Shown: piece by piece, positions 2,781-19,646 of the stretch | Position numbering within the stretch: position 1 is the stretch's first letter | Layout of the letters: each line of letters starts with the position of its first letter | DNA from: Spiroplasma endosymbiont of Crioceris asparagi | GTDB lineage: Bacteria > Bacillota_I > Bacilli_A > Mycoplasmatales > Mycoplasmataceae | Length of the DNA: 64,000 bases | Reading direction: 5' to 3' | NCBI RefSeq assembly: GCF_964020035.1 | Contig: NZ_OZ026475.1 | Span: forward strand, 372,001-436,000 | Notes under the pieces: model-generated | Seen by the model: the letters and a program-made list of their open reading frames with translations, nothing else | Databases searched by the model: none | What the model was told of the DNA's origin: nothing | Translations under genes and position numbers: made by a program

Positions 2781-5423
2781 TTATTTTTTGATTTCTACAA
2801 TTTTTTGTATAATTGTTATTTTCTTATTTTCATATTCTTTTTGTTTTTGTTGTTCTACAACAATTTTATCTTTAGCTGCTTTTGCTAAAAAGTTTTTGTT
2901 CGATAAGATGTTATTACTTCTTTTTAATTCAGATTCAACAAGCGCAAGTTCTGTAGATAACTTATTTAATAATTCTTCATAATTAATAAAATCAGATTCT
3001 TTAATATATAAAAATAATTTTGATAAAGTTAAAATATTGTAATTTGGTTTTTCTACTTTATCGATTTTTAATACTTTAATTTCTGAGTTTACCATTTTAT
3101 TTAAATATTGATTTATAAAATCAATTTCAATATTATCTTCTACCACAAAAGTTAAGTGATTTTTATTGGCAATATTTTTTTCAGTTCTGAATTCTCTAAT
3201 TTTTGAAATAAGTTCAATTATTAGTTCAATGCTGTTATTTTCATCTTTACTAATTTTAATTGCTAAATTATCATCTCAATCTTCAATTACAATTGATTCT
3301 TGTAAATTTAATTTTTGATAAATTTCTTCAGTTACAAATGGAATAAATGGATGCAACATAATTAAAATATCTTTGAGAACATATACTAGTGTTTTTAATG
3401 TTGTATTTTTAATTGCTGACTCATCATTTAAATTTGATTTAGCCAATTCAATAAATCAAGAACAATAATCATTTCACACAAAGTTAGTTAATAATTTTGA
3501 AGCAATTGAAAAATTATAAGTTTCAATACATTTTTTTACTTCTGCTTTAACAAGTTTTAATTTTTGAATAATTCATTTGTTAATAATATTTTTTTGATTT
3601 ACTTCACTATTTAAATTTTTAATAAAATTTTCATTATTAAATTTGGTATTAAAATTACTTGCTTCTAAATTCATAATTACATATCGTGAAGCATTTCATA
3701 ATTTATTAATAAAATTTCATCCAGCACGAATTTTTTCTTCAGAAAATTTAATATCCATTCCCGGAGTAGAGTTAGACACAAGCGCATATCTTAAACTGTC
3801 AACCCCATACTCTTTAATAACTTCTAAAGGATCAATTCCATTTCCTAATGATTTAGACATTTTACGTCCATTTTCATCTCTTACCAATCCATGAAGTAAT
3901 AAATCTTGAAATGGTTTTTGACCAGTTAAGTTTAATGATTGGAAAATCATTCTTGAAGCTCAAAAGAAAATAATGTCATAACCAGTTACTAAAACAGAGT
4001 TGGGGAAAAATTTATTAAATAATTGATTTTGTTGTTTGATTGATTTATCAGGATTTCATTCCATACAAATTAGTGGTCATAAGGCTGAAGAAAATCATGT
4101 ATCTAACACATCATTGTCTTGAACATAATCACTTTCGTTTTTAGGGGGATTAATCTCACAATAAATTTCTCCTGTTTGTTTATGATATCAAACTGGAATT
4201 TGATGACCTCAAACTAGTTGTCGAGAAATAGTTCAATCATAAACATTTTCCATTCATTTTAATAAATCATTGTTAAAACGTTTATCAAAAACATTTATTT
4301 TATCTTTAGATGCTTGTAATTTAACAACACTTGAACCAAGATCTTTCATTTTTACAAATCATTGTTTTGAAAGCATTGGTTCAACAATGGCATTAGATTT
4401 TTCACTATATCCTACACTACTAGTAATTTCTTCTTCTTTAATAAATGATTTAGTTAAGTTTTTAATAATTTGTTTTCTTGCCGCAAAACGATCAAGTCCT
4501 TGATATGTACCACAAATCTCATTCATTGAACCATCTAAATTCATACAATTAATCATTTCTAAATGGTGTTTTTTTCCTAATTCAAAATCGTTTTTATCAT
4601 GAGCTGGTGTACATTTCATAACACCTGTTCCAAAATCAATATCTACATATTCATCACCAATAATTGGAAGTAAATTACCATTTACTGGATTTATTACTTT
4701 TTTACCAATGAAAGATTTAAATCTTTCATCCAAAGGATTAACAACAAGACAAACATCACCAAACATTGTTTCAGGACGAGTAGTAGCAACTTCTAAAAAG
4801 TTATTAGAATTTTCTAAAAAATATTTAAAATAATACATTTTAGTTGTGCTTTCTTTATAAATTACTTCAATATTTGAAATTGCTGTTTGAAATTGTGGGT
4901 CTCAATTAACAAGTGTGTAATCTTGATAAATTAACCCTTTTTTATACATTTCTACAAAAACTTTTCTTACAATTTTTTGATTTGCCTCTGAGAATGTGAA
5001 TTGTTCTTTTGAACGATCAATAGCTAAACCAAAAGCATCTCATTGACTTTTAATATTTTTTTCATAGACAGCTTTTCATTTTCAAATTTCATCTAAGAAT
5101 TCTTTACGAGTTAATTTATTTTTGTCAATATTTGCTTCACGCAAATATTTTTCAACAACTGCTTGTGTAGCAATTCCTGCATGATCCATTCCTGGAACTC
5201 ATAATGTTTCAAAACCATTTAATTTTTTAAATCGAATTAATAAATCTTGAATAGCATTATCCAAAGAGTGACCTAAATGTAATTTACCTGTGACATTTGG
5301 TGGTGGCATAATAATTGAAAACGCTGGTTTTTTAGAATTTTCATTCACATTAAAATAACCTTTTTTAATTCAATAACTATTTTTGTCTTGTTCAACAATT
5401 AAATGATTGTATTTTGATTCCAT
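2781..5423 (-). CDS. valS: Valyl-tRNA synthetase
   Basis: Class I enzyme that charges tRNA-Val. It has 880 residues, normal for ValRS. The HIGH motif is HLGH at residues 49-52 within [13 protein letters not shown], diagnostic of ValRS; KMSKS lies at 521-525. The CP1 editing domain follows HIGH ([10 protein letters not shown]), and a C-terminal coiled coil rich in Lys/Glu closes the protein. Many UGA-Trp codons lie in the frame. ATG at 5421-5423 has GGAG upstream. The gene is preceded by a T-box leader. The comEA-like gene and comEC follow closely on the same strand and may be co-transcribed. Confidence 0.98.
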
Positions 5424-14593: not shown

Positions 14594-14629
14594 AATAAAA
14601 AAAGTAGAGTTTTATCTACTTTTTTTATT
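14594..14629. terminator. Bidirectional terminator between the membrane protein and pdhD
   Basis: AATAAAAAAAGTAGA at 14594-14608 and its exact complement at 14615-14629 form a 15-bp stem with a 6-nt loop; T runs lie on both strands. It contains the pdhD stop codon and ends the eight-gene energy operon. Confidence 0.9.
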
Positions 14630-16460
14630 ATCAATTAATCGGTTTTCCACTTTCTAATGCTTCTGCTGCTTCACCGATTGCCTCACTCAATGTTGGGTGT
14701 GGGTGAATTGCACGAGCAATTTCAGTAATAGTCCCTTCTGATTCGATTACACTAGTAATTTCAGAAATCATATCGGTGGCAGTGTTAGCAATAATGTGTG
14801 CACCTAAAATTTGTTTATATTTTGGTTCACAAATTAATTTAACAAATCCGACAGTATTACCATCAGCCAATGCTTTACCAATAGCTGCAAAAGGAAATTT
14901 GTATGCTTGATATTCAATATTATCATGTTTTAATTGCTCTTCAGTATAACCTATTACAGCTACTTCGGGATGAGTGTAAATACAACTTGGAATACGATCA
15001 TAACGCATTTTTAAATCATGAGCATCTTTTATGTTATGCAAACTTGCAATATGATTTGCAGCAATAATACCTTGATGTGAAGCCACATGCGCAAGCATAA
15101 TTCTACCTGTTACATCACCAATAGCATAAACATTGTTTAAGTTAGTACGACAATATTCATCAACTAAAATATGTCCTTTTTCATTTTTATTAATACCAAT
15201 ATTATCAAATCCTGTAGTTACTACTTGACGGCCCACAGATTGTAAAACATAATCTGCTTTAATAGTATGAGTTTTTCCGCCAACTTCATAAACTACTTCA
15301 TGATTTTTTTTAAATTCTTTTGTATTAACATTAGTAATAATTTCTAAATTACCATGTTTTAATAGTTCTTTTGTCATTTCATTTGAAACATCACTATCTA
15401 GCATTTCTAAAATAGTTGGCATAAATTGTAAAATAGTAACTTTAGTTCCCAGTTGTTTAAACATTGAGGCAAACTCTACACCAATAACTCCCCCACCAAT
15501 AACAACTAGTGATTTAGGAATTGTTTTTAAATTTAAAGCAGCTGTTGAATCAATTAGTCAACCATCTTTTACCGCAGCCTCAGCTCCGGGAAGCTTCAAT
15601 CCATTTGGAATACTTCCGGTGGCAATAATCATATTTTCACAAGTATATTTTTTATTATCTACTGAAATAGTATATTGATCTAAAGCTGTTGCTTCTCCAC
15701 TAATCATTGTTACTTTATTTTTTTTCAATAGTGATTTAACTCCGCTAGTTAATTTATCAACAACATTATTTTTACGAGCTTGAATTTTATTTCAATCTAA
15801 TTTGATATTAGTTTTGGCAATTTTAATTCCAAACTCTGCTGCTTCATTAATAATTTGTTCATAAACATATGATGATTTTAATAGTGTTTTAGTAGGAATA
15901 CATCCAATGTTTAAACAAACACCACCATATTTATTTTTTTCAACGATCATTGTTTTTAATCCTAATTGAGCACACTTAATAGCTGATACATATCCACCAA
16001 CTCCTCCACCAACTATAATTACATCATAGTGATTTGGACCACTTAATTGTGGTTTACTTATAACTGGCTCAGGATTTGAAACAATGTCTTGTTGATTATT
16101 TTGTGGTTGTGATGTTTTACGTCCGCGAGTTAATAAAGAATTAGAAACTGGAGTTGAACCAACAACAGAAGCGTTTTCTTCTTCAACTTCTGGTGTTGCA
16201 GGTGTTGCGACAACATTTTCATTTTTACCATCATTAATTTCAACAACTACATCACCAACCTTAATTTCTTGACCTTTTTGAATTAAGATTTTGGCAATAA
16301 CTCCATTAATTGGTGATGGTATATCTGATGTTACTTTATCAGTTTCTACATTAAATAAGGCATCACCCATTTTTACTGTTTGTCCTGGTTTTATCATTAC
16401 TTCAGTTACAGTACCTTCTGTTAATCCTTCACCAATATCGGCAAATTTTACTTTATACAT
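14628..16460 (-). CDS. pdhD: Dihydrolipoamide dehydrogenase (E3) with N-terminal lipoyl domain
   Basis: Re-oxidises dihydrolipoamide of the pyruvate dehydrogenase complex and yields NADH. 610 residues against about 470 for a bare E3. Residues 1-78 are a lipoyl domain with the lipoylated lysine in ETDKVTSDIPSP (Lys42); residues 79-140 are a Pro/Ser/Asn-rich swinging linker; then an FAD fold (IIVGGGVGGY, about 148-157), redox disulfide GGVCLNIGCIPTK (Cys182, Cys187), NAD fold (VVIGGGVIGVEFA) and the dimer-domain HPHPTLSEA motif. RBS AAGGAG precedes ATG 16460. Since the neighbouring E2 has no lipoyl domain, this one must carry the acetyl transfer for the complex. Confidence 0.97.
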
Positions 16461-16469
16461 ACATACTCC

Positions 16470-17411
16470 TTATTCTATTAACAACAATGCAGGATTTGTT
16501 AAATAGTTAGTTACTAAAATTAAAAATCTTCCTGCATCTGCCCCATCAATTACTTTATGGTCACAAGAAATAGATAGCGGCATAAAGTCTCTAACCATTA
16601 TTTCTCCATTTATAACAGCTGGTGTTTTAGTAATTGTTCCGACCCCCAGAATCGCAGATTCTGGATAATTAACAATTGGAGTGGCATAATCAAGCCCTAC
16701 TGATCCAAAGTTAGATATTGTAAATGTTCCGCCAGTCATTTCGTTTAATGTTAATTTTTTTGTACGTGCTTTAGTAGCAAGTTTAGTAATTTTGGCGGCA
16801 ATTTGTAAGATTGACATTTGATCAGCACACTTAATCACAGGTACCATCAACCCTTCTGGAGTATCGCAAGCTACTCCAATATTAATTTGATTAGCCATTT
16901 GAATTGCATGATTCTTTTCATCATTTCTAATATTTAAATTCGGCATTTGTTTTAATGACAAGGCAACCGCTTTTACAATAAAAGCTAAATATGTTAACTT
17001 AACATTTTTAGTAAGTGCGTGTGTTTTTACATTGTTGCGTAATTTCACTAATTCACTAACATCAATACTTTTTAGCCCAGTAAACAATGCGGTTTGACTA
17101 TTAGCAATTCCCATTGCTTTAACTGTTGCCTTGCGAATAGGATTCATAGGTATACTCTCCCATTGCAAAGTTTCACTAAATGTTGGCATTGTTAAATTAG
17201 GTTTTGCTAGTGATTCACTAACATTTGATAATTTATCTACTTTTAATTCATCATTAACTATAGGTTTTGCAGCAACTTGTGGTTTAAAATTTTGAATATC
17301 TGCAACTAAAATTCGGTTATTTGGACCACTAGGAATAACCTGATTAAGATCAATTCCCAAGTCTGCAGCGACCTTACGAGCTAATGGACTTGCTTTAATT
17401 GCAACTTTCAT
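16470..17411 (-). CDS. pdhC: Dihydrolipoamide acetyltransferase (E2) lacking a lipoyl domain
   Basis: Core of the PDH complex. 313 residues (ATG 17411 is preferred because GGGGGA lies 8 nt upstream; ATG 17417 would leave only 2 nt). It opens straight into the peripheral subunit-binding domain, SPLARKVAADLGIDL...GPNNRILVADI (residues about 7-40), then a short linker and the trimeric catalytic domain ending in DHKVIDGADAGRF, with the catalytic His and Asp. The usual 80-residue lipoyl domain and first linker are missing. The 115-nt gap upstream contains what looks like the old start site (see separate entry). Function should depend on the E3 lipoyl domain. Confidence 0.95.
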   Translation of the reverse strand: MKVAIKASPLARKVAADLGIDLNQVIPSGPNNRILVADIQNFKPQVAAKPIVNDELKVDKLSNVSESLAKPNLTMPTFSETLQWESIPMNPIRKATVKAMGIANSQTALFTGLKSIDVSELVKLRNNVKTHALTKNVKLTYLAFIVKAVALSLKQMPNLNIRNDEKNHAIQMANQINIGVACDTPEGLMVPVIKCADQMSILQIAAKITKLATKARTKKLTLNEMTGGTFTISNFGSVGLDYATPIVNYPESAILGVGTITKTPAVINGEIMVRDFMPLSISCDHKVIDGADAGRFLILVTNYLTNPALLLIE

Positions 17412-17517
17412 TCTCATGTTCCCCCATTTTATTTTCTTTATTTATGTTATTAAAATTTAATTTAATAATTTTTAAGTTTATTATTTTTATAGTTAAAATT
17501 AATTCTTTTATATACAT
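17412..17517 (-). pseudogene. Fossil 5' end of pdhC (former lipoyl-domain start)
   Basis: Between pdhB and pdhC lies RBS plus start AAGGAGTAAGGATGTATA (ATG 17515-17517). It closely matches the start of the lipoyl-bearing pdhD, AAGGAGTATGTATGTATA. The frame then runs about 40 codons of A/T-rich sequence without lipoyl motifs, out of frame with pdhC, and ends just inside pdhC. I infer that the lipoyl domain was deleted and its start region decayed. It might still be translated as a short coupling ORF. Confidence 0.5.
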
Positions 17518-17526
17518 CCTTACTCC

Positions 17527-18528
17527 TTAAAATTTAAAATTAATTACTTCATTAATTTTTTCTTCAATTCGAGTAGGAATTGGTTGATGATATGTTTCTC
17601 CTGAATCAAAAGGAATAACAATATCGTATCCTGTACATCTTGAAAGCGGTGCTTTTAGATATTCAAAACAATTTTCGTTTACACTAGCAATTATTTCTGC
17701 TGAAACTGAAAATGATTTAACAGCTTCGTGAACAACCAATAATCTTCCTGTTTTTTTTACTGAATTAAATACCATTTCACGATCTCACGGTTTAATTGAA
17801 CGTAAGTCAATTAACTCAATTGTTTTTCCAGGATTTTTAGTTTCGAATGCTTCAATTGCTTTTTGACAATCTACAGTTTGTGCTCCATAAGTTACCACAG
17901 TAAGATCGTTTCCTTCCTGAATAATAGTTCCCTTACCAATTGGTACAGTATAAAAATCTTCAGGAATTTCTTCTTTAAAAGCACGATATAGTTTAGTTGG
18001 TTCTAAAACAATGACTGGATCATTTGATTCAATTGCTGCCAACAATAGTCCTTTTGTATCATATGGAGTTGATGGGCAAACTACTTTAATTCCTGGTACA
18101 TGTGCATAAATAACTTCCATAGCTTCAGAATGTAATTCAAGGGCACGAATTCCCCCGCCCATTGGCATTCTAATTACTAATGGTGTTGGATATTTACCAC
18201 GTGTACGGTTACGCATTCTTCCTAAATGACCAATAATGTTTTGAAGTGAGGCTCAACCCAAACCTTCAAATTGAATTTCAACTACTGGTTTCATTTTGTT
18301 TAATGCCATTCCAATTCCAACACCAACAAAAACTGCTTCAGAAATTGGTGCATCAAAACAACGTGATTCACCATGAGTTTTTTGCAAGCCTTCGGTAGCA
18401 CGGAAAACTCCACCTTCAAATCCAACATCTTCTCCAAAAACTACAACTTCTTTTCACTTGTTCATTGCTAAATCAAGTGTGTGAGAAATTGCTTTAATAT
18501 TGTTCAAAGTTATCATTTTTTCTGCCAT
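17527..18528 (-). CDS. pdhB: Pyruvate dehydrogenase E1 beta subunit
   Basis: 333 residues, typical E1-beta. Conserved [15 protein letters not shown] near the N-terminus, the [15 protein letters not shown] segment, and [19 protein letters not shown] around the active site. The C-terminal transketolase domain contains [12 protein letters not shown]. It forms the alpha2beta2 thiamine diphosphate decarboxylase with PdhA. ATG 18528 lies 2 nt past the pdhA stop, with GGGGGA upstream inside pdhA, so translation is coupled. Confidence 0.98.
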
Positions 18529-18530
18529 GA

Positions 18531-19646
18531 TTAATGTCCCCCTTTAACTCTAGGGTGAGTTTTAAAAAATGCTTGTGCTTCATGCAGTTGTTCTTCAAGT
18601 TCTGGTGTTTTTTTCTCATATATAAAATCAAATACATTTTCTAATGGATAATCTTTTTCAGCTTCAGCTAATTCAAATTGTTTATGAATAAATTCATCTT
18701 GTTCTTTATCTAAAGCTTGTTGTTGATTATCATCTCAATATTTTAATGATTCTAAATATTTTTTAAAACGAATTAATGGATCATTTTTTTGTGCTTCAGC
18801 AAATTCTGGTTTAGGACGATAAACATCAGGGTTGTCTGATGAAGAATGCGCCCCTAAACGATAAGTATCAAATTCTATTAACACTGGACCGTTGCCATTT
18901 CTAACATATTCAATACATTCTTTACTTACTGCATAACATGCTAAAAAATCATTACCATCAACTTTAATTGATGGAGTTCCAGTAGCAATTCCTTTAACTG
19001 CAACATTTAAAGCTTTAGTTGATTTTGCATATGGCGTAGAGATTGCTCACTTATTATTTTCACAAACAAACACAACGGGAAGTTCATGTAGTTTAGCAAA
19101 ATTCATTGCTTCATAAGTTTCACCCTCACTCATTCCGCCATCGCCTGTGGTTGTTAAAGTTACTGCTTTTGATTTACGATATTTTTCTGCAAATGCAATT
19201 CCAGTAGCTTGTGAAAATTGAGAACCAATAATAATGTTTGGTGGTAAAGAATTAACACCCTTAGGTGATTGACCACCAATTTCATTACCCATTCAATACA
19301 ACATAATGTTTTTCATTGGCATTCCCACTGTTAGCCAAGCAGCATTATTACGATAACCACAAGCAAATCAATCTTGACCTTGCACTAAGTTAATTGCATA
19401 ACCGACTTCAGCAGCTTCTTGACCAGTTGATGATAGAAATGATAATAATCTTCCTTGACGTTGGACTTTGTTTTGAAAATCATCTTGACGTCTTGATAAA
19501 TTCATAAGTTTATATGCTTTTAATAATTCCGTCTTACTAATTTTTGGTAAAATTGCTGCATCACAAATAATTTTTCCATTGCGATCTAGCATTTTTACTT
19601 CTTCATTTTTTAACGGATCATATTTAAATAAATATTTTGTTTCCAT
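18531..19646 (-). CDS. pdhA: Pyruvate dehydrogenase E1 alpha subunit
   Basis: 371 residues, normal for Gram-positive-type E1-alpha. The thiamine diphosphate motif GDGGMSEG...CENNKWA is intact, as are the STGQEAAEVG and YRNNAAWL segments and the RLGAHSSSDNPDVYR phosphorylation-loop region. It decarboxylates pyruvate and reductively acetylates lipoamide, here the lipoyl domain on E3. Start ATG 19646 has GGAAAGG upstream. It lies 15 nt after lplA in an operon with pdhB, pdhC and pdhD. Confidence 0.98.

Follow-up and report, generated by a model that had tools for sequence, protein, structure and literature searches.

Textbooks put the lipoyl arm on E2, as the hub of the PDH complex. How could a complex work when its E2 has no lipoyl domain (LD), and how would such an arrangement arise? 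This question is raised by the PDH operon of the Spiroplasma endosymbiont of Crioceris asparagi (genome G000), located in the 64-kb stretch of DNA analysed here (hereafter, the window). The operon very probably encodes a complex whose sole swinging arm is on E3, following the deletion of the E2 LD from an ancestor with two LDs. The old pdhC start would have been left in place, pdhC would have been restarted downstream, and the E3 arm would do the shuttling.

Read with genetic code 4, the operon lies on the minus strand, in the order lplA-pdhA-pdhB-pdhC-pdhD. It comprises lplA, which is the only lipoate-protein ligase gene of the genome (19662..20657), pdhA (E1 alpha; 18531..19646), pdhB (E1 beta; 17527..18528), pdhC (E2; 16470..17417), and pdhD (E3; 14628..16460). 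An AT-rich gap of 109 nt (17418..17526, minus strand) separates pdhB from pdhC, at the site where relatives encode the E2 LD. Using Pfam, we found only two domains in PdhC, i.e. the subunit-binding domain (E3_binding, residues 7-42) and the acetyltransferase domain (2-oxoacid_dh, PF00198, residues 86-313; 280 bits, above the curated cut-off), the latter with an intact catalytic DHKVIDG motif (DHxxxDG). No Biotin_lipoyl match was obtained on the E2 chain, either by Pfam on PdhC or in a PF00364 search of the whole genome. PdhC therefore opens directly with the subunit-binding domain, as proposed in an earlier reading made from the sequence alone (hereafter, the sequence-only reading). In PdhD, an N-terminal LD (residues 1-78; Biotin_lipoyl, PF00364, 3-75, 65.5 bits) is followed by a linker of about 66 residues, rich in Pro, Asn, Ser, and Val, and by dihydrolipoamide dehydrogenase, which Pfam matches as two E3 domains. 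The predicted lipoyl lysine is Lys42, inside an ETDKV motif.

From the whole genome (a single contig of 701,400 bases), only one PF00364 match was identified, in PdhD, and the claim that PdhD bears the only LD of the complex is thus upheld. No separate E2 gene with an LD was found elsewhere in the genome. The only other E2-like match (G000:C1:151461-152048) was rejected as a second E2: it corresponds to the C-terminal region of a 538-aa protein, has a degenerate DRRICEQ motif, and lacks an LD. This protein (L033; G000:C1, about 150.4-152.0 kb, outside the window) ends in a degenerate E2 catalytic domain in which DRRICEQ replaces DHxxxDG. A 660-aa homologue exists in the same-genus genome G001, and the protein is possibly a structural one that recruited the E2 core fold. 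The genome has no GcvH, since its only GCV_H match coincides with the LD of PdhD. Weak LD matches in large proteins outside the PDH operon were observed in Spiroplasma-like genomes (G011:C1:47370, G033:C1:1087999, G073:C1:904825, G082:C1:233788, and others); the PF00364 search returned none of this kind in the genome of the window.

We collected the PDH loci of relatives and read their domain content under code 4. G001 and most genomes of the family around G000 carry LDs on E2 as well as on E3. These two-LD relatives, which we take to be of the Mesoplasma florum and Apis-clade Spiroplasma (S. apis) type, among others, share with the present locus the gene order, an E3 with an N-terminal LD, and a pdhC start behind pdhB, but they also keep the E2 LD, which is nearly identical to their E3 LD. 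Within the family, an E2 without LD was found in four genomes (G000, G002, G003, and G069), all of which have kept the E3 LD. In trees of the concatenated PDH proteins (one genome per species), which would also be compatible with operon transfer, these four genomes are nested in different two-LD clades, and a tree forcing the four together was rejected (log-likelihood 786 lower; AU P = 1.5e-57). These trees indicate at least four independent losses of the E2 LD within the family. The ancestor of the clade already had near-identical LDs on the two subunits. The sequence-only reading had E3 taking over from E2; with an ancestor of this type, E3 rather remained, and the loss on E2 needed no new partner because E3 already bore a near twin. 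In each of the four genomes, the truncation of E2 stops at the boundary with the subunit-binding domain, which is what one would expect if the docking of E1 and E3 requires this domain.

The E3 LD was lost instead in G033, which is the sister of G000 in the tree with moderate support only, and in the group formed by G010, G017, and G029. In G009, neither E2 nor E3 bears an LD; the domain and the linker form an ORF of their own immediately before the E3 ORF (L088, about 3680-4003), and the E2 lacks the subunit-binding domain as well. In a distant family (f7), every examined PDH locus of the G054 genus encodes an E2 with the subunit-binding and catalytic domains only, and an E3 bearing either a single LD or two in tandem. 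Given the four losses in the family and these f7 cases, LD-less E2s are common in Mollicutes. The expectation that an E2 with no LD would be much rarer than an LD on E3 therefore fails in this group, a case having also been published in M. hyopneumoniae.

Two tandem N-terminal LDs on E3, adjoining an E2 without LD, were observed at L241, L243, L244, L253, L256, and L257. At further loci, from f7 relatives (L118, L129, L239, L242, and L245-L255 except L253), a catalytic-only E2 of about 233-257 aa adjoins a free-standing LD protein of 79-118 aa. Read ORF by ORF, L118, L255, and L242 present an extra ORF of 76-94 aa in which LTPRxxAILERK and a linker motif, VVG..VS, occur, and L255 has an E1 beta gene upstream. 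An apparent split of E2 in genus g22, seen with standard-code frames, was discarded: it is an artefact, TGA having been taken for a stop, and is gone with code 4.

Neisseria meningitidis and Alcaligenes eutrophus probably keep LDs on E2, unlike the genome studied here. Both are cited as having an LD fused to the N-terminus of E3, as in the present operon (in PMC7873978). The arrangement with an LD on E3 only is already known from M. hyopneumoniae, whose PDH layout is titled a "novel lipoyl domain arrangement" (Matic et al. 2003, Gene 319:99) and whose PdhD was shown by LC-MS/MS to be the lipoylated protein, modified on Lys42 (Zhu et al. 2021, PMC7873978). As reported there, the likeness covers the position of the PDH LD on PdhD (E3), the lipoyl-lysine at residue 42, and the pdhC-pdhD gene pair. 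The present case is independent: M. hyopneumoniae, from a remote family of the order, underwent a loss of its own, and is reported to have also GcvH and two ligases, whereas the present genome has one LD and one ligase. A surviving old start is not known to have been described for the M. hyopneumoniae PDH genes. In actinobacterial OdhA/KGD, an acyltransferase domain is likewise served in trans by the LD of another protein, but the arm comes from the E2p of another complex and E1o and E2o are fused, while here it comes from the E3 of the same complex (PMC10415282).

Behind pdhB, the ancestral pdhC start survives as AAGGAGTAAGGATGTATA (17511..17528, minus strand; ATG at 17517). Its Shine-Dalgarno overlaps the pdhB stop, and the stretch from the end of pdhB to the old start reads ...TTT TAA GGAGTAAGG ATG TAT ATA. 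The resemblance to the pdhD start, which the sequence-only reading had pointed out, amounts to 16 of 18 bases, over a short fossil and at a level that is only moderately informative once a start site is given. On both strands of the 64-kb window, no other site apart from the pdhD start itself reaches 15 of 18 matches. In the relatives with an E2 LD, pdhC starts at the place of the fossil, mostly about 5-25 nt past the pdhB stop, and opens with MFKVKFADIGEG or MYKVKFADIGEG, i.e. the start of the LD. The proposal that an original E2 LD was deleted, leaving its start site behind with translation now beginning further downstream, is thus well supported: pdhC of G001 and of most of the family encodes an E2 LD from this very position, and nothing else in the window resembles the pdhD start so closely. 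In G002, the shortened E2 itself uses the retained old ribosome-binding site (TTAGAGAGG, the same as in its sister G018).

The copy of the pdhD start had been described as decaying after this point. Instead, the fossil ATG is followed by a 40-codon open frame (MYIKELILTIKIINLK...; 17395..17517, minus strand), out of frame with pdhC, which ends 23 nt inside pdhC and has no Pfam match; no LD remnant is recognisable in the gap between pdhB and pdhC. The DNA past the old start is therefore better read as a deletion that left an open leader frame than as a decayed LD. The start of pdhC is probably the second ATG (17411), because its spacing from GGGGGA is better. With this start, the gap measures 115 nt, as in the sequence-only reading, a figure that does not apply to the first ATG (17417), for which the gap is 109 nt.

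The old start may not be a fossil at all. It could serve as a working leader, with ribosomes entering at this strong site to make a 40-codon peptide whose stop 23 nt into pdhC would allow reinitiation and couple the translation of pdhC to that of pdhB. Across the 32 codons that it spans in the very AT-rich gap, the frame meets no stop, with a chance of about 0.018 in a first-order model, although a single short frame with P of about 0.02, picked after the fact, is weak evidence. G069 has, behind AAAAAAGGAG, a strong ribosome-binding site, a 13-codon frame that overlaps the start of pdhC, and this pdhC start lacks its own ribosome-binding site. A 32-codon frame likewise overlaps the pdhC start in G003, but without a clear ribosome-binding site, and pdhC of the present genome has its own GGGGGA, well spaced from the second ATG. 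A leader function is conceivable, and we regard it as somewhat doubtful.

Why does the old start resemble that of pdhD? Within a genome, the LDs of E2 and E3 are closer to each other than to any orthologue from another genome in 27 of 31 genomes. The base identity between the two LDs reaches 98.7% in G006 and 99.1% in G045, vs. at most 77% and 74%, respectively, with any other genome. In several genomes (G011, G024, G071, G078, and G080), the tract of identity extends upstream through the ribosome-binding site and the ATG. The simplest reading of these identity patterns is that gene conversion or fresh duplication has recurred between pdhC and pdhD, the two processes not being fully separable with one genome per species. 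The fossil start would then resemble the pdhD start because both are copies of one tract, and under such concerted evolution either copy of the LD could be lost. In the open-access literature, we found no report of repeated E2 LD losses or of concerted evolution between E2 and E3 LDs, and nothing relevant on lipoyl domains and gene conversion. A broader reading, to which we give an even chance, is that the LDs are continually homogenised, so that the arm has no fixed address and is repeatedly dropped from E2 or E3, or freed, while the complex is kept and old E2 starts persist as translated leaders.

For the arm borne by E3 in the present complex, a deletion would have taken out the E2 LD together with the linker, as far as the edge of the subunit-binding domain, leaving the old ribosome-binding site and start just behind pdhB, with pdhC now beginning about 100 nt downstream. 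Recombination between the two LD repeats was rejected as the cause of this deletion because, given the gene order, its product would lack the E2 body rather than the LD. According to established PDH biochemistry, E3 dimers would dock on the subunit-binding domain of E2. The Lys42-lipoyl arm of E3, on its 66-residue linker, would collect the acetyl group at E1 (reductive acetylation), pass it to CoA at the E2 core, and be reoxidised at the active site of E3 itself. With the arm in this position, E3 would be needed for acetyl transfer, beyond reoxidation.

This scheme supposes a functional complex. The loss of the E2 LD could also be mere decay, in a complex that is non-functional or that, like the one of JCVI-syn3A, where E1 is missing, keeps only part of its role. 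The genome is small (701 kb) and PDH E2 and E3 are dispensable in JCVI-syn3A, but the four subunits, LplA, and the E3 LD are all intact and similar to those of relatives, the catalytic DHKVIDG motif of E2 is preserved, and the operon of G067 shows how different true decay looks, so we consider decay improbable. In this last genome (L223), the PDH operon is a natural example of decay, fragmented and with broken frames for E1b, E2, and E3. Finally, despite the several Mollicutes without an E2 LD, it is very hard to believe that the present E2 never had one, that E3 was the later source of the E2 LD in relatives, and that the likeness of the starts arose by chance, as outgroups and nearly all relatives bear an E2 LD, the LD-less E2s are scattered tips inside LD-bearing clades, and the old start, unique in the window, lies exactly at the pdhC start of relatives.

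With the sole swinging arm on E3 as the preferred reading, this lineage and its relatives constitute a natural experiment, whose outcome suggests that no arm is needed beyond the one on E3. They also suggest that the arm has switched several times and may be lost from either subunit when two near-identical copies are present. The dependence of the swinging arm on its tether to the E2 core thereby becomes directly testable, and the two LDs offer a clear case of concerted evolution at the level of a bacterial protein domain.
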